Assembly (NCBI GenBank): GCA_021324775.1
Contig: JAJPIM010000043.1
Location: 1-64,000 of the forward strand
Direction of reading: 5' to 3'
DNA from: Gemmatimonadota bacterium
GTDB lineage: Bacteria; Gemmatimonadota; Gemmatimonadetes; Gemmatimonadales; Gemmatimonadaceae
Length of the DNA stretch: 64,000 nt
Part shown: positions 1,565-43,123 of the stretch, piece by piece
Layout: every line of letters starts with the position of its first letter
Numbering within the stretch: the stretch's first letter is position 1
The notes under the pieces: model-generated
What the model saw: the letters and a program-made list of their open reading frames with translations, nothing else
Databases searched by the model: none
Told to the model about the DNA's origin: nothing
Made by a program: the position numbers and the translations under genes

Positions 1565-2134
1565 ATGAGTCCCAGCACGACCACGACCATCCCGCAGATC
1601 CTCAAGGACTGCCGGACCGCCATGGAGAAGGCAGTGGAGAGCGCCCGCCGCGAACTGGGGTCGATCCGGAGTGGCAAGGCGACACCGGCGCTCCTCGATA
1701 CCGTTCGGGTCGACGCCTACGGGCAGATGATGCCGGTCAACCAGGTCGCGTCGGTCGCGGCACCGGAGCCACGGCTCCTCATCGTGACCCCGTGGGACAA
1801 GGGACTTGCCAGGGCCATCGAGAAAGCGATCCGCGAGTCGGATCTCGGGCTCGACCCGGCAGTCCAGGGAGCGATCATCCGCGTGCCGCTGCCATCGCTC
1901 AACGAGCAGCGGCGGCGCGATCTTGTGAAGATCGTGCACAAGCTGGCTGAGGAAGGGCGGGTGGGTGTGCGGCACGCGCGGACGGAATCGCGGGACCGTC
2001 TCAAGAAGATGGACAAGGTGTCGGAGGACGACGTCAAGCACGGCGAGAAAGAGTTGCAGAAAATGCACGACGACTTCGTGCGCAAGATCGATGAGACGCT
2101 GAAGGCTAAGGAAGCCGAGATCATGGAAGTGTGA
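1565..2134 (+). CDS. frr: ribosome recycling factor
   Basis: RRF acts with EF-G to split post-termination ribosomes. The 189-residue product matches the ~185-residue family length and carries ARRELGSIRSGKATPALLD, the central INQ/PWDK-type segment (IVTPWDKGLARAIEKAI), and the helical C-terminus RRRDLVKIVHKLAEEGRVGVR. A GGAG about 6 bases upstream of the ATG supports the start. The gene belongs to the tsf-pyrH-frr translation block; its stop overlaps the uppS start by one base (TGATG), suggesting translational coupling. Confidence 0.96.
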   Translation: MSPSTTTTIPQILKDCRTAMEKAVESARRELGSIRSGKATPALLDTVRVDAYGQMMPVNQVASVAAPEPRLLIVTPWDKGLARAIEKAIRESDLGLDPAVQGAIIRVPLPSLNEQRRRDLVKIVHKLAEEGRVGVRHARTESRDRLKKMDKVSEDDVKHGEKELQKMHDDFVRKIDETLKAKEAEIMEV

Positions 2135-2895
2135 TGACGGCGCCGGCTGAACCGACGGCAGACGAGCTGCTCGGGCGCATCCGCGTCCAGGGCGGCGTCC
2201 CGCGCCACGTGGCCATCATCATGGATGGCAACGGGCGGTGGGCGCGGGAGCGTCTCATGCCGCGTCCATACGGGCATCGGTCGGGGATGAAGGCCGTGCG
2301 GGACGTCGTGGAGGGTGCCGTCGAGTCGGGCCTGGAGGTGCTGTCGCTGTTCGCCTTTTCGCAGGAGAATTGGCAGCGGCCTCCCGTCGAGATCACGGCG
2401 CTGATGTCGCTGCTCGAGGAGTACATCGCGCGAGAAGCCGATGAGTTGCGCGATCGCGGCGTGCGGGTGCGCATCCTCGGCGATCTGGACCGCCTCACGC
2501 CGGCGGCGGCAAGCGCGGTCAACCGTGTCGTAGCCGAGACCGAGCACAACGACCGGCTCCGGCTCAATCTGTTCATTTCCTACGGTGGCCGGGCCGAGCT
2601 GGTGCGGGCGGCACAACTGCTGGCACGCGATGCTCAGGCCGGGCGCCTGGTCCCCGACGAGATCACCGAGGCCGACTTCCAGAGGCGATTGTATACGGCG
2701 GATTGCCCGGATCCCGATCTGCTGATCCGCACGTCGGGCGAGCAGCGGATCTCCAATTTCCTTCTCTGGCAGATGGCATACACCGAGTTGTTCATCTCAC
2801 CGGTCCTGTGGCCGGACTTCGGGCGGCGGGAGCTGTACGAGGCGATACTGGACTACCTCAATCGGGAACGCCGTTTCGGCCGCGTCTCCGCCTAG
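2134..2895 (+). CDS. uppS: isoprenyl transferase (undecaprenyl diphosphate synthase)
   Basis: This cis-prenyltransferase condenses isopentenyl diphosphate onto farnesyl diphosphate to make the C55 lipid carrier for peptidoglycan. Signatures are IMDGNGRWA with the metal-binding Asp, YGHRSGMK, FAFSQENWQRP, and the C-terminal RTSGEQRISNFLLWQ followed by YTELFI. Its length of 253 residues is typical. The ATG at 2134 shares one base with the frr stop; a GTG one codon earlier is an equally possible start. It is followed by cdsA and dxr, so lipid carrier, phospholipid and isoprenoid precursor genes are grouped. Confidence 0.95.
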   Translation: MTAPAEPTADELLGRIRVQGGVPRHVAIIMDGNGRWARERLMPRPYGHRSGMKAVRDVVEGAVESGLEVLSLFAFSQENWQRPPVEITALMSLLEEYIAREADELRDRGVRVRILGDLDRLTPAAASAVNRVVAETEHNDRLRLNLFISYGGRAELVRAAQLLARDAQAGRLVPDEITEADFQRRLYTADCPDPDLLIRTSGEQRISNFLLWQMAYTELFISPVLWPDFGRRELYEAILDYLNRERRFGRVSA

Positions 2896-2905
2896 GCGCG
2901 AGCCC

Positions 2906-2963
2906 ATGCGGCGGATGCCATGCGGCGCATGCCCATGAAGCGCATGCCCATGACGCGCGTGCG
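2906..2963 (+). repeat. 14-15 bp tandem copies of the cdsA start region
   Basis: Between uppS and cdsA the start segment of cdsA (ATGAGGCATATGCC) is preceded by four diverged copies, with ATGs at 2906, 2920, 2935 and 2950 (spacings 14, 15, 15, 14). The ATG at 2920 opens a 15-codon reading frame (MRRMPMKRMPMTRVR) that ends in a TGA overlapping the cdsA ATG as ATGA. The ATG at 2906 opens a 10-codon frame ending at 2938. The peptides mirror the CdsA N-terminus MRHMP. Confidence 0.75.
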
Positions 2964-3848
2964 ATGAGGCATATGCCGGAGTTGGCCCAGCGCATCGCCT
3001 TCGGTGCCGTCGCGGCGCCGCTCACCATCTGGATCATCATGATTGGCGGTGCGCCGCTGGTGGGGCTCCTCGCGCTGACGGGCGGGGTCGGCGCGTGGGA
3101 GTTGTTCCGGATCGCGCGGGCTGGCGGAGCGCGGCCGATCGAGGCCGCCGGCATTCCGCTGGCTGCCCTGATTCCGATCGTGCTGGCCGCGGAGCCCAGG
3201 GGTGTTTTCACCGTCGCGCCGGGCTTCGCCGCCGCCGTGCTGATGATCGTCATGGCGCTCGCCATCTGGATACGGAGGGACGACGGGCACGCCCTGTCGG
3301 CGGTGGCGACGACCCTGTTCGGCGCGTCGTATACGGGTGGTCTTCTCAGCTTCGCGTTCGCGATCCGCTACTATCGGTACGTGGCCGACGACCGGGCTGG
3401 CATTGCGCTCCTGCTGCTTCCACTGCTGCTCACGTGGGCCAACGACATCGGCGCGTACGCGGTGGGACGGGCACTTGGGCGCCGCAAGCTGATCCCGGCG
3501 ATAAGTCCCGGCAAGACCGTGGCGGGGGCCATCGGCGGTGTCGTCGTGACGGTCGCTGCGTGCTGGCTGTACGTCGGGCGCGTCCTCGTGCCATCGGCGG
3601 ATCTCGGTTTGAGTCTGTCGGGCATCGTGATCTTCGGCGTGGCCGTGAGCGTGGCGGCGCAGATCGGCGACCTCGCCGAATCACTGCTCAAGCGCGAGGC
3701 CGGCGTGAAGAACAGCTCCCGGCTGTTCCCGGGGCATGGCGGGGTGCTGGACCGCGTGGACAGCTTGTTGTTCGTGCTGCCCGTCGCGTACATCATGTTC
3801 GGCATCCCGGGCTTCCTGGTGATGTCGCCAATGAGCACCATTCGATGA
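2964..3848 (+). CDS. cdsA: phosphatidate cytidylyltransferase (CDP-diglyceride synthase)
   Basis: CdsA converts phosphatidic acid and CTP to CDP-diacylglycerol, the precursor of all phospholipids, in the inner membrane. The 294-residue product has about eight hydrophobic segments, and the C-terminal signature SLLKR....KN.......PGHGGVLDRVDS. One oddity: the family pattern has K-D after the K-R, and here the position is Asn (VKNSS). The HGG..DR.D core is intact. The start could be ATG 2964 or ATG 2973; 2964 is preferred because it makes an ATGA junction with the upstream mini-ORF. The stop overlaps a further ATGA that begins the array leading into dxr. Confidence 0.92.
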   Translation: MRHMPELAQRIAFGAVAAPLTIWIIMIGGAPLVGLLALTGGVGAWELFRIARAGGARPIEAAGIPLAALIPIVLAAEPRGVFTVAPGFAAAVLMIVMALAIWIRRDDGHALSAVATTLFGASYTGGLLSFAFAIRYYRYVADDRAGIALLLLPLLLTWANDIGAYAVGRALGRRKLIPAISPGKTVAGAIGGVVVTVAACWLYVGRVLVPSADLGLSLSGIVIFGVAVSVAAQIGDLAESLLKREAGVKNSSRLFPGHGGVLDRVDSLLFVLPVAYIMFGIPGFLVMSPMSTIR

Positions 3849-3886
3849 GCGCCGTTCCGTGAGCGCCGTTCCGTGAGCGCCCTTCG
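3845..3886 (+). repeat. three 14-bp mini-ORF units leading into dxr
   Basis: Three tandem 14-base units fill the cdsA-dxr gap: ATGAGCGCCGTTCC, GTGAGCGCCGTTCC and GTGAGCGCCCTTCG. The dxr start ATGAGC follows immediately at 3887. Each unit is a five-codon reading frame (MSAVP, MSAVP, MSALR) ending in a TGA that overlaps the next start as GTGA or ATGA. The cdsA stop itself overlaps the first ATG. Every junction between cdsA and dxr is therefore a 4-base stop-start overlap. Confidence 0.85.
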
Positions 3887-5107
3887 ATGAGCAGGCGAAT
3901 CCCTGGGGCTCCGGCTGTCCGGCACCTTGCCGGCGCCCGCATCCGCGGCGTCGCGGTGCTTGGCTCGACCGGCTCGATCGGGACGACCGCACTCCGGGTG
4001 CTCGAACGGCAGCGAGCGTCGTTTCGAGTCGATGCGCTGACCGCCTACGGGAATGCGCTGCTGCTCGAAGACCAGGCCGGTCGCTTCAGCCCTGCGTATG
4101 TAGGACTCGTCCAGAACGGCGGGACGTATCCCGCGGAGTGGCAGGTCGGCCCCGAATGTCTGGTGACAGCCGCGACGCTGCCGAGCGTGGACATCGTCGT
4201 GAATGCGGTGGTCGGCGCGGCCGGCCTGGATGCGACGCTCGCGGCATTGCGGGCAGGGAAGCGTGTCGCGCTCGCCAATAAAGAGACCCTCGTGACGGCC
4301 GGCGAGCTGGTGACTGCGGCCGCCACGTCGGGCGGCGGCGAGATCGTGCCGGTCGACAGTGAGCATTCGGCCATCCTGCAGTGTCTCGGACGGCGGCCGG
4401 CGAGTGACATCCGGCGGCTGATCTTGACCGCGTCAGGCGGGCCGTTCCGGGGATGGTCGCGAGATCAGCTCGAACGGGCAACGGTTGCCGACGCGCTACG
4501 CCATCCCACGTGGAGCATGGGTCGCAAGATCACCGTGGACAGCGCGACGCTCGCCAACAAGGCGCTCGAAGTCATCGAGGCGCACTATCTCTTCGGCGTA
4601 CCATACGATCGGATCGAGGTGGTCGTCCATCCACAGAGCGTGGTGCATTCGTTCGTGGAGTTCATCGATGGGAACGTACTGGCGCAGGTCGGGATGCCGA
4701 CGATGGAGCTGCCGGTGCTCTACGCGCTGACGCATCCCGAACGGCTGCCGGACGACGGGGTACCACCGTTCGATCCCGTGACCGCGTCACCGCTGACGTT
4801 CGAGCGGGTCCGGGTCGATGACTTCCCGGCGCTGGCGCTGGGGATGGCGGCGGGCCGAGCAGGCGGCGCCGCGCCGGCGATATTCAATGCGGCGAACGAG
4901 CAAGCCGTGGCGTTGTTTCTCGAGGGGTTGATGACTTTTGCCGGGATCGCGCGCGCGATCGAATCCGCACTCGGGTCGCTGGCCGGATTGCCAGCCGGCG
5001 ATCGGCAGGCGCTGAAAGCGGCCGATACCGCGGCGCGGGCGCATGTCCGCCAGCGGGCGGGTGGCGCGGTCGGCGCGAGCGCGATCCAGGGGGGAGCAGG
5101 GTGCTGA
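3887..5107 (+). CDS. dxr: 1-deoxy-D-xylulose-5-phosphate reductoisomerase
   Basis: Dxr converts DXP to 2-C-methylerythritol 4-phosphate with NADPH, the first committed step of the MEP isoprenoid pathway. The 406-residue product has the NADPH loop VLGSTGSIG near residue 25, ANKETLV, the metal-site segment DSEHSAI, ASGGPFR, and the substrate-binding block MGRKITVDSATLANKALE, followed by VHPQSVVHSF and MPTMELPVLYAL. It is full length. The N-terminus MSRRIP resembles the peptides of the upstream mini-ORFs. It overlaps rseP by 7 bases. Confidence 0.96.
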   Translation: MSRRIPGAPAVRHLAGARIRGVAVLGSTGSIGTTALRVLERQRASFRVDALTAYGNALLLEDQAGRFSPAYVGLVQNGGTYPAEWQVGPECLVTAATLPSVDIVVNAVVGAAGLDATLAALRAGKRVALANKETLVTAGELVTAAATSGGGEIVPVDSEHSAILQCLGRRPASDIRRLILTASGGPFRGWSRDQLERATVADALRHPTWSMGRKITVDSATLANKALEVIEAHYLFGVPYDRIEVVVHPQSVVHSFVEFIDGNVLAQVGMPTMELPVLYALTHPERLPDDGVPPFDPVTASPLTFERVRVDDFPALALGMAAGRAGGAAPAIFNAANEQAVALFLEGLMTFAGIARAIESALGSLAGLPAGDRQALKAADTAARAHVRQRAGGAVGASAIQGGAGC

Positions 5108-12321: not shown

Positions 12322-12329
12322 CGCTGGCC

Positions 12330-12380
12330 GGCATACTGCCGGCTGGCATACTGCCGGCTGGCATGCTGCCGGCAGGCATC
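12330..12380 (+). repeat. 15-bp tandem repeat before ald
   Basis: Three copies of GGCATACTGCCGGCT (12330, 12345, and 12360 with ATA changed to ATG) plus a partial fourth fill most of the gap between the M16 peptidase gene and ald. The copy at 12360 holds an ATG in frame with ald, so an N-terminal extension MLPAGINL... is formally possible. Confidence 0.7.
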
Positions 12381-14790: not shown

Positions 14791-15798
14791 ATGGCGCGTG
14801 CCGTCGCCAGCGGGATCCGAGCGGACTTCGGGCTGCTCGCACTTTCCGTCTCCCTCTCATTGGCTGCGCTCGCGCTCCCGGCACATCTGCGTGATCCCGT
14901 CACATCGTTGCTCCGGCGTGTCTTCATCGCGCCGCTGGTCGCCTTGCAGAGCGACGCCGAGCTGGCTCGGCGCGCGATCGTTCGCCACGACGCCGATACG
15001 GATGCGCGGGACAGCATCGCCTTGCGGGCCCTCGAAGTACCTGCGCTCGAAGCCGAGAACGACCGTCTCCGCCGCGCGCTCGGGCTGGGCCGCTCGCTCG
15101 GTTGGGGGTTCGTGCCTGCCGAGGCCCTGCACAGCCGGGCCCTAGGGGAGGAATACACCCTCACACTCACCCGCGGCTCGCGTGCGGGGATCCGGACGTT
15201 CAGCCCGGTCGTGGCGCCAGAAGGACTCGTCGGGATGGTCGAGACCGTGGATCCGACAATGAGCCTCGCGATCACCTGGTCGCACCCCGACTTTCGGGTG
15301 AGCGCGATGGCGGCGGACGGGAGCGCCTTCGGGATCGTCAAGGCGCATCTCGGATCGGGCCCCGAGCGATATCTGCTCGAACTGAGCGGCGTGCAAATGA
15401 GCGCGACGCTCTCCCCCGGGACGGAGATCGTGAGTTCGGGTGTGGGGGGGGTGTATCCGCGCGGCATCCCGGTCGGGACCGTGATCGGCGAGGTGAAGAC
15501 CTCCGAAGGGTGGGCCCGGACGTACCTCGTGCAGCCAGCGGTGAAGCCGTTCGACGTATCGTCGATCCTCGTACTCGAGCCGAAGCGGGTGCTGGCGGGT
15601 ATGCAGTCGGTGTGGGCGGGCGAGGATTCGGCCCACCGCACGGTAGCGCCTCCGGGCGACTCCGCGGCGCATCGAGGCGGGATCATCATCCCGCGCGACA
15701 CCGTGCCTGAAACACCTGCGGACAGTGCCGATGCGGCCGACTCGGGTGCCGGGGGGGCCGGCGGGGGTGCCGGCGGGGGCGGGAGGGGGCAGCCATGA
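14791..15798 (+). CDS. mreC: rod shape-determining protein MreC
   Basis: MreC is a single-pass periplasmic scaffold of the elongasome that activates PBP2. The 335-residue product has an N-terminal membrane helix (about residues 12-32), a helical coiled-coil stretch (ALEVPALEAENDRLRRALGL), and a two-beta-barrel domain with VGMVETVDPTMSLAITWSHP and ISSGVGGVYPRGIPVG-like sequence. The C-terminus is a low-complexity Asp/Ala/Gly-rich tail, which is unusual and may be disordered. The stop overlaps the mreD ATG by 4 bases (ATGA). Confidence 0.93.
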   Translation: MARAVASGIRADFGLLALSVSLSLAALALPAHLRDPVTSLLRRVFIAPLVALQSDAELARRAIVRHDADTDARDSIALRALEVPALEAENDRLRRALGLGRSLGWGFVPAEALHSRALGEEYTLTLTRGSRAGIRTFSPVVAPEGLVGMVETVDPTMSLAITWSHPDFRVSAMAADGSAFGIVKAHLGSGPERYLLELSGVQMSATLSPGTEIVSSGVGGVYPRGIPVGTVIGEVKTSEGWARTYLVQPAVKPFDVSSILVLEPKRVLAGMQSVWAGEDSAHRTVAPPGDSAAHRGGIIIPRDTVPETPADSADAADSGAGGAGGGAGGGGRGQP

Positions 15799-16283
15799 CC
15801 ATGGCCGGGACGATCCGGACGGCGGTCGCGTTCGCGATCCTCGTGCTCCTGCACTACTCGCTCCGCCCACTGCTCGGCTGGCGGGCGGAGATCGACTTCC
15901 TGCTGATCGCGCTCCTGCTCGTGGCGGTGCGTGTGCGTCCCGGCGCGGCCGCGGTCATCGGGCTCGCCCTCGGGCTGGCTGCCGATTCACTGACCCCGAG
16001 TGCCTTCGGGGCGGGCGCACTGGCGATGAGCATGGTGGGGTTCGGGGCGTCGTGGCTCAAGGCCGCGTTCTTCGCCGACAACCTCGCGCTCAACGGCTTC
16101 TTTTTCTTCGCGGGCCGGTGGGCGTTCGCGATCATCTACGTGCTGGCCGAGCATCAGCAGCGGGGGATCGAGCTGGCGCAGGAGATGTTCGTGTGGGCGC
16201 CGTTGTCAGGGGCCGTGACCGCGATCGCGGGTGTGATCGCGCTCGCCGTCATGCGGCCGCTTCTGGAGCCACAGTCCACGTGA
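15795..16283 (+). CDS. mreD: rod shape-determining protein MreD
   Basis: This 162-residue polytopic membrane protein has about five hydrophobic segments and the family-typical segment (GLALGLAADSLTPSAFGAGALAMSMVGF compares with the usual G...G...D......G......). MreD bridges MreC with the PBP2-RodA synthase in the inner membrane. Assignment rests on position between mreC and mrdA and on membrane topology, because MreD sequences are weakly conserved. The ATG overlaps the mreC stop. Confidence 0.88.
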   Translation: MTMAGTIRTAVAFAILVLLHYSLRPLLGWRAEIDFLLIALLLVAVRVRPGAAAVIGLALGLAADSLTPSAFGAGALAMSMVGFGASWLKAAFFADNLALNGFFFFAGRWAFAIIYVLAEHQQRGIELAQEMFVWAPLSGAVTAIAGVIALAVMRPLLEPQST

Positions 16284-16305
16284 GGCGCAGGGGCCTCCGG
16301 CGGCT

Positions 16306-16361
16306 ATGAGCGTCCAGCCATGAGCATCCAGCCATGAGCATCCACCCATGAGCATCCAGCG
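16306..16361 (+). repeat. four 14-bp mini-ORF units leading into mrdA
   Basis: Four tandem 14-base units start at 16306, 16320, 16334 and 16348: ATGAGCGTCCAGCC, ATGAGCATCCAGCC, ATGAGCATCCACCC, ATGAGCATCCAGCG. The mrdA start ATGAGCTTCCATCC at 16362 is itself a fifth copy. Each unit reads as a five-codon ORF (MSVQP, MSIQP, MSIHP, MSIQR) whose TGA overlaps the next ATG as ATGA. The mrdA product begins MSFHP, so the array is a reiteration of its own start. Confidence 0.88.
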
Positions 16362-18137
16362 ATGAGCTTCCATCCCAATGAAGTCGCCAGGCGGGCGCGG
16401 GTCGCGACTGGTGGGCTGGTGGTCGCCTTTGTTCTGCTGCTGGGTGCTTTCTTCCGGACCCAGGTGCTGCAGAACTCGCAGTACGTGTTGCAGAGCGAGA
16501 CCAATCGCCTGCGTGAGGTGCCGCTGCCGGCCCCGCGCGGGATCATCTACGACCGGAACGGCAAAGTCATCGCGGAGAACGTTCCCGGGTACTCCGTGTC
16601 GGTGCTGGCGCCGACCGCGGACTCCCTCCGGGCGATGCTGCACCGGCTGAGCGAGACGATCCCGCTGAGCCCCGACCAGATCGAAGTGGCGGTGCGCCGG
16701 TATCGCCGCGCTCCGAACCGGCCGACCGCCATTCTCGGCGACGCATCGTTCGACATCGTGTCGGTGCTCGAGGAGCACCGCGTCGAGTTTCCGGGGTTGG
16801 TGATCCAATCCGCGCCCAAGCGGCACTATCCGGACGGCGCGGCGGTTGCCGCCTTCGTCGGCTATACCGGTGAAATCACCGAAGGCGAGCTTGCCTCCCG
16901 GTCATACCGCGGATACAAGGCGGGACAGCAGGTCGGAAAGGGCGGCCTGGAGAGAGAATACGAAGACAAACTCCGCGGCAAGGAAGGCATCCGGTTCGTG
17001 GAAGTCGACGCGCGCGGCCGGGTGGTCCGCGAGGCCGGCGCACGCGAGGACCTGCTGCCCGAGGGTGCTCCACCCCTCTACACGAACATCGATCTCGATC
17101 TGCAGCGCTACATGGTGTCCCTGTTCGGCGATTCGCTCCAGGGGGGCGCGATCGCCCTCGATCCGGTCACGGGCGAAGTGCTGGCGCTGCACAGCGCGCC
17201 CACCTTCGATCCGAACCGCTTCATCGGTGGCATCCCGGCCGACTACTGGCGTGAGTTGAACACCGATCCGCGTCGCCCGCTGTACAACAAAGTGATTCAA
17301 GGCCGGTATCCGCCCGGCTCGACGTGGAAGCTGGCGACCGCGACGTGGGCGATCGAGAACGGGATCGTGACCCTCGACGATGTGATGCCGACACCGTGCA
17401 CGGGCGGATACCAGTTCGGCAACCGGTATTTCCACGACTGGGACCCGCACGGACACGGCAGCATTACGCTGGCCAAGGCGATCGAAGTCTCGTGCGAGGT
17501 CTACTTCTACCAGCTCGGACTGAAGATCGGGATCACGCGGCTCGTGGCGGGCGGCGTCGCGCTCGGATTCCGCGAGCGGACGGGGATCGACCTCCCCAAC
17601 GAATCCACGCCGTTGTTTCCGTATTCCGAGGACTACTACAACAAACGGTTCGGCCCGCACGGGTGGAACACGTCTGTCGTGCTCAATCTCGCGACCGGGC
17701 AGGGAGAGAACTCGCAGACGGTCGCCAGCATGGCGCGGTTCTACACGGCGCTGGCGACCGACGGCGAAGCGGTTCGCCCGTCGATCGTCCGCCGCACGCA
17801 GCCGCAGCGGACGCGCCTGTTCCAACTGACGGACGCGCAGATGTCGGGATTGCGCCGCGCGCTCACCGGCGTGGTCTCGGCGGGCGGGACCGCGGCGGCC
17901 TCGCATGTCGAGGGTCTCGTCATCGCGGGCAAGACCGGCACGGCGCAGAACACCGAAGACCAGACCAAGAACCACGCGTGGTTCGTGGGGTTCGCGCCCG
18001 CCGACCATCCCAGGATCGTCGTCGCGGTGCTCCTGGAACTCGGCGGGCACGGCGGCCACGCTGCCCGCCTCGCGTCGGCGATCATGGCGCGCTACCTCAA
18101 GGCGACCCCGGTGTCTATCCCACCGACGACGGGTTGA
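16362..18137 (+). CDS. mrdA: penicillin-binding protein 2 (elongasome transpeptidase)
   Basis: PBP2 crosslinks peptidoglycan during cell elongation as partner of RodA. The 591-residue product has one N-terminal membrane helix (about 15-31), a dimerisation domain with RGIIYDRNGKVIA, and a transpeptidase domain with SxxK (Ser320-Thr-Trp-Lys323 in PPGSTWK) and KTG (524-526, AGKTGTAQN). The second motif reads Ser377-Cys-Glu where PBP2 usually has Ser-x-Asp/Asn, a notable substitution. It lies 78 bases after mreD, and rodA begins on the next base after its stop. The ATG at 16362 is the last of five reiterated ATGs. Confidence 0.94.
   Translation: MSFHPNEVARRARVATGGLVVAFVLLLGAFFRTQVLQNSQYVLQSETNRLREVPLPAPRGIIYDRNGKVIAENVPGYSVSVLAPTADSLRAMLHRLSETIPLSPDQIEVAVRRYRRAPNRPTAILGDASFDIVSVLEEHRVEFPGLVIQSAPKRHYPDGAAVAAFVGYTGEITEGELASRSYRGYKAGQQVGKGGLEREYEDKLRGKEGIRFVEVDARGRVVREAGAREDLLPEGAPPLYTNIDLDLQRYMVSLFGDSLQGGAIALDPVTGEVLALHSAPTFDPNRFIGGIPADYWRELNTDPRRPLYNKVIQGRYPPGSTWKLATATWAIENGIVTLDDVMPTPCTGGYQFGNRYFHDWDPHGHGSITLAKAIEVSCEVYFYQLGLKIGITRLVAGGVALGFRERTGIDLPNESTPLFPYSEDYYNKRFGPHGWNTSVVLNLATGQGENSQTVASMARFYTALATDGEAVRPSIVRRTQPQRTRLFQLTDAQMSGLRRALTGVVSAGGTAAASHVEGLVIAGKTGTAQNTEDQTKNHAWFVGFAPADHPRIVVAVLLELGGHGGHAARLASAIMARYLKATPVSIPPTTG

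Positions 18138-42850: not shown

Positions 42851-43123
<273 letters not shown>

Follow-up and report, generated by a model that had tools for sequence, protein, structure and literature searches.

A chain of overlapping stop and start codons leads into mrdA, and similar arrays in related genomes follow a reading-frame rule

The PBP2 gene mrdA of a bacterium of the family Gemmatimonadaceae is preceded by an unbroken chain of overlapping stop and start codons, most of it a 14-bp tandem array that ends on the mrdA start codon itself. Such stop–start relays are not specific to mrdA, and in related genomes arrays of this type that lie between co-directional genes mostly end on gene starts when the period is 2 mod 3, and in no case when it is 1 mod 3. 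We consider it likely that the array is the tandem expansion of a coupled stop–start junction, of a kind retained only if termination–reinitiation is preserved.

Within the window, that is, the whole 64,000-nt stretch of contig analysed here, inspection of the sequence at 16306–16375 gives five 14-base units, each opening with ATGAGC, as the original prediction had described. Units 1–4 encode MSVQP, MSIQP, MSIHP and MSIQR, each terminating at a TGA that forms ATGA together with the following ATG, and unit 5 (MSFHP) is the start of mrdA at 16362. The chain is also longer than predicted and reaches back to the stop codon of mreD: this stop sits within a GTGA at 16280, and the ORF opened by its GTG (VRRRGLRRL) closes on the first ATGA (16306), such that mreD and mrdA, 78 nt apart, are joined without a break by hops of 26, 14, 14, 14 and 14 nt. 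Every junction from 16280 to 16362 is a stop/start overlap as RTGA, the form of a junction coupled by termination–reinitiation (Table 1). With a Tandem Repeats Finder (TRF) score of 106, the array ranks top among the arrays of the window located at a gene start. The mrdA start is supported by the Pfam PBP_dimer and Transpeptidase domains and by an MSFHPN start conserved in relatives, and the Pfam matches around the array are those of mreB, mreC, PBP2 and RodA. A 194-residue ORF (15725–16309) runs over mreD in another frame and likewise ends on the first ATGA; it is probably spurious and misleads automatic junction calls.

Table 1. Features of the two relays and of the array before cdsA (window positions)
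Feature	Position	Strand	Remarks
mreD	15795..16283	+	ORF between mreC (PF04085) and mrdA; MreD by position and membrane-like sequence, without Pfam match
mreD stop TGA	16281-16283	+	Within GTGA
Mini-ORF 1, VRRRGLRRL-stop	16280..16309	+	Opens on GTG overlapping mreD stop; 26-nt hop
Mini-ORF MSVQP-stop, unit 1 of 14-bp array	16306..16323	+	
Mini-ORF MSIQP-stop, unit 2	16320..16337	+	
Mini-ORF MSIHP-stop, unit 3	16334..16351	+	
Mini-ORF MSIQR-stop, unit 4	16348..16365	+	Stop overlaps mrdA start
mrdA (PBP2)	16362..18137	+	PF03717 and PF00905; first 14 bases are unit 5
Second relay	3831..3890	+	3' end of cdsA carries unit 1; mini-ORFs at 3845, 3859 and 3873 lead to dxr at 3887
dxr, target of the second relay	3887..5107	+	PF02670, PF08436, PF13288
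Array of mixed 14/15-bp units before cdsA	2906..2967	+	

The window holds a second relay, in which the stop of cdsA forms an ATGA at 3845 and three 14-nt hops then reach dxr. Upstream of cdsA itself, the array of mixed units carries eight ATG or GTG codons, each of which reads into the ATGA at 2935 or the ATGA at 2964, the latter being the cdsA start. Elsewhere in the same genome, further relays lead into ispG (GcpE), a biotin-carrier gene, an FAD oxidoreductase gene, ssb (by three 14-nt hops and one 92-nt hop) and one uncharacterised gene, and the unit sequences differ from locus to locus. The cluster that houses the second relay, frr-uppS-cdsA-dxr (1565–5107), includes the gene for ribosome recycling factor (frr), which bears on reinitiation; this is probably a coincidence.

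Across 179 genomes of the family, we looked for four RTGA words repeated with a fixed period of 10, 11, 13, 14, 15, 16 or 17. One procedure served to classify the distinct arrays, about 24–30 for each period (13 for period 17 and 23 for period 13). Arrays were counted if they lay between two genes in the direction of the array, repeats of half the period being left out, and were taken to end on a gene start if the last RTGA was at most 20 nt from the start of the next gene; usually the match was exact. Among arrays with a period of 2 mod 3 (11, 14 and 17), 26 of 35 end on a gene start and nine end elsewhere, against 0 of 23 for periods of 1 mod 3 (10, 13 and 16; Fisher P = 3.2e-9); one of the 26 is a single locus in two near-identical contigs, which leaves the result unaffected. 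Period-15 arrays lie mostly within genes. The gene starts used for the sampled genomes are those of a simple gene caller, and most of the comparison genomes are draft assemblies; for several downstream genes, however, protein domains begin at residues 2–11, which fixes their starts. The genes that such arrays precede are unrelated and include dxr, ispG, ssb, the biotin-carrier gene, kinases and response regulators.

The spacing at starts is thus constrained by frame, as termination–reinitiation would have it, and because neither DNA elements nor RNA structure know a reading frame, the placement of the arrays points to their translation. Indeed, the frame-keeping repeat lengths in related genomes suggest that ribosomes really read these chains. 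Units of random length at the starts of relatives, which would have spoken against a relay, were looked for in this comparison, and the outcome favours the relay. The claim that a 14-base period is uniquely needed proved wrong, however: any period of 2 mod 3 serves, and periods of 11 and 17 occur in relatives.

Further counts give the rule independent support. In about 1.9 Mb from six genomes, with gene starts taken at offset 0 as called, complete chains that link a gene's stop to the start called for its neighbour number 25 in the true frame and 6 per shifted frame, and single-hop bridges with dissimilar flanks are likewise enriched in the true frame. Distances between RTGA words in same-strand gaps, summed over distances of 6–26, number 74, 37 and 27 for 2, 0 and 1 mod 3, the corresponding figures on the antisense strand being 24, 27 and 22. 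When adjacent units are compared across six arrays of this genome, the TGA differs at 0 of 63 sites and other positions at 52 of 210, a contrast that is much weaker once the last units are left out (about 0.01, an estimate). The raw number of arrays forms no part of this evidence. Triplets of RTGA spaced 14 apart number 23 in this genome and 36 in a reversed control, an absence of excess that reflects a genome rich in short tandem repeats; what goes beyond chance is where the arrays lie, that they obey the frame rule and that TGA is retained. The spacing between a gene start and the RTGA words before it was left unused, since overlap with upstream genes, through their codon phase, confounds it.

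Intergenic tandem repeats whose period is 7 or a multiple of it (for example CTACTTT, CCCCAAT, TCCCCTT) are numerous in stretches of the same genome (L054–L093), and repeats of this type are a general source of 14-bp repeats here. Other repeats in the window are of different character. A 15-bp tandem array (GGCTGGCATACTGCC, 3.6 copies, 12326–12379) lies about 30 bp before the start of ald; it does not abut that start, is out of register with the start codon and forms no relay. At 42906–43123, a 65-bp tandem repeat of 3.3 copies begins within the 3' end of a tRNA (42851–42924), as though through tandem duplication of the tRNA end, and the G-rich stretch of low complexity with which the contig opens (1–113) is possibly an assembly end.

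The original prediction could be checked against the gap between mreD and mrdA in other genomes. By protein search, mrdA was located in 59 of 60 genomes, each of them from a relative, and in none of the 29 junctions inspected, those of two congeners included, were 14-bp units present. About 20 of the 29 have a direct 4-nt RTGA overlap between mreD and mrdA, and in one relative that is more distant there is a single hop of 11 nt. The 26-nt hop of the window recurs in the congener G002 with RTGA at both ends, the TGA unchanged at both while 10 of 32 nt have changed; the automatic label of direct overlap was set aside for G002, since alignment places its mreD stop opposite the mreD stop of the window, and its mrdA start lies 26 nt 3' of that stop. 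In the other congener, G001, mreD stops with TAA and a 21-nt gap without any RTGA chain follows. At least one close relative thus does without coupling at this junction, and independent initiation of mrdA may occur as well. At cdsA–dxr, both congeners have a direct RTGA overlap without units. Relatives that lack the units and mostly retain direct overlaps indicate that the mrdA units are, on this comparative evidence, of recent origin and were laid over a junction that was already coupled.

The history that we favour would run as follows. In the ancestor, mreD and mrdA would have shared a 4-nt RTGA overlap at which a ribosome ending mreD restarted on mrdA. A short gap would then have opened between the two genes in this lineage, bridged by a single 9-codon mini-ORF, after which the first 14 bases of mrdA would have been tandemly duplicated four times upstream. 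With a length of 2 mod 3, every 14-base copy reads from its own ATG to a TGA overlapping the next ATG, and a terminating ribosome could restart five times before mrdA despite the 78 nt that separate it from mreD. Termination–reinitiation requires very short distances, an additional 14 nt costing 40–80% and an additional 38 nt nearly abolishing it (PMC10666635), so a 78-nt gap should uncouple mreD and mrdA unless the intermediate starts are used. Ribosomes would reinitiate at each step, and the expression of mrdA would depend on their doing so. Selection would be mainly purifying and act on the first duplication: one of 1 mod 3 would send the restarted ribosome across the true start out of frame, one of 0 mod 3 would extend the protein, and one of 2 mod 3 would keep the coupling. 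Duplications at a junction would survive only with a length that keeps the chain, and this filter alone would suffice for only 2 mod 3 arrays to accumulate at starts. The null model considered earlier, the simple tandem duplication of an ancestral ATGA start, accounts for the origin of the array; what the frame rule adds is that such duplications would be tolerated only where coupling is preserved.

The same frame rule is predicted by a reading in which the repeats are neutral and merely filtered by frame. The downstream gene would initiate mostly alone, the relay would bring few ribosomes, and arrays of 1 mod 3 would be purged because restarted ribosomes would cross the true start out of frame and interfere. 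This fits G001 with its unchained mreD–mrdA junction, the restriction of arrays to particular lineages, and an origin of units by ordinary short tandem duplication, which is common in this genome. Single-hop bridges with dissimilar flanks are nevertheless enriched in the true frame, and together with the direct overlap kept in most relatives they suggest that delivery of ribosomes matters; moreover, no Shine–Dalgarno-like motif was found by inspection in the units of the mrdA array. On balance, we regard this reading as unlikely. An element acting at the DNA or RNA level, such as binding sites, a promoter or an RNA structure that just happens to contain ATGA, would find a parallel in other RTGA arrays of period 11 that lie in divergent intergenic regions, often near where the opposite-strand gene begins, and resemble helically phased binding sites. 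A reading-frame rule would be meaningless for such an element, however, and 14 bp is out of helical phase; the RNA of the mrdA array folds no better than shuffles (z +1.1), and an Rfam search of the window returned a tmRNA and two tRNAs only, with no family at the array. We therefore hold such an element to be highly improbable.

A more ambitious proposal, made in the original prediction, is that the array is a translational tuner for elongasome synthesis: a fixed fraction of ribosomes would be lost at each hop, the number of units would set mrdA output, and slippage would vary that number within populations as at a contingency locus. The units are near-identical, and copy number can indeed change in whole units with the chain unbroken, as had been anticipated, although this was seen once and at another relay than that of mrdA. 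The relay into a protein-kinase gene has five units in one genome and four in another, in contigs that are 99.2% identical over 3 kb; the single 14-nt gap is exactly one unit, and the chain is intact in both. Against this, units are absent from mreD–mrdA in all relatives inspected and similar arrays precede unrelated genes. Lineage-specific arrays before unrelated genes lead us not to favour selection of unit number as a tuner; the evidence does not support a tuner dedicated to the elongasome, and an adaptive contingency locus seems quite unlikely. The strongest version, in which ribosomes reinitiate processively through at least five serial junctions and a unit number changed by slippage is a heritable rheostat on translation of the gene that follows, in this case an essential transpeptidase of the cell wall, is improbable.

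The 11-bp arrays require separate mention. Intergenic RTGA words recur every 11 bp in L236 (2352–2454, up to 10 units) and near the centres of L241, L255 and L239, and further such arrays occur in L240, L242, L243, L245, L247 and L248, the units being otherwise unrelated. Mostly they lie 18–130 bp upstream of an opposite-strand gene (one of which begins MFSTLLESQ) and are conserved in three related genomes; they are perhaps binding sites in helical phase (read on the opposite strand, TCAY recurs every 11 bp). Diverged 11-bp arrays were dropped as proof of selection for relays, because most of them sit between divergent genes, upstream of a gene on the opposite strand.

It is disputed whether the bacterial ribosome remains a 70S on termination and restarts locally, and how efficient each such event is (PMC10666635). 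Where two to eight near-identical restart sites follow one another in a natural chain, the reinitiation efficiency would be multiplied and would become measurable from the number of units. Furthermore, the frame rule offers a purely genomic signature of intergenic mini-ORFs being read, applicable to uncultured bacteria, and would explain why important genes are not silenced when tandem repeats invade the operon junctions before them.

A full-text literature search, in which subscription journals are thinly covered, returned no account of such short serial relays. Arrays of five ATGA units sought in all genomes and viral contigs were mostly heptad repeats among the matches listed; among these same matches, a small number of 14-bp arrays run up to and end at a gene, in an Actinomycetota metagenome-assembled genome (MAG), in Kitasatospora and in an alphaproteobacterial MAG, and thus the kind is not confined to this family. 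Termination–reinitiation at ATGA overlaps agrees with the present junctions in junction word, −4 spacing and direction (PMC6728339, PMC10666635), although the known cases are single junctions between two genes, whereas here junctions follow in series through mini-ORFs without evident coding purpose. Bicistronic and uORF designs similarly have a short ORF hand the ribosome to the next start (PMC12548453); what is seen here, however, is natural, serial and variable in unit number, and takes off from an upstream gene's stop and not from a 5' leader.

The closest known system is that of the mycobacterial MIRUs, for example in senX3-regX3. According to PMC12548453, which cites Supply 1997, MIRUs are tandem intergenic repeats within an operon, each ORF being coupled to the next gene by a 4-nt stop–start overlap, and the ends of the repeat ORFs in the mrdA array overlap neighbouring ORFs by 4 nt in the same way. 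The units of 77 and 53 bp reported for senX3-regX3 (PMC4213456) are, by our own arithmetic, both 2 mod 3. MIRU units, however, are about 50–100 bp of conserved sequence interspersed at many loci, apparently mobile mycobacterial elements that insert at start codons, whereas the mrdA units are 14 bp and locus-specific, and the present units in general are shorter, at 11, 14 or 17 bp, copied from the gene's own start and encoding peptides of about 4–6 residues.
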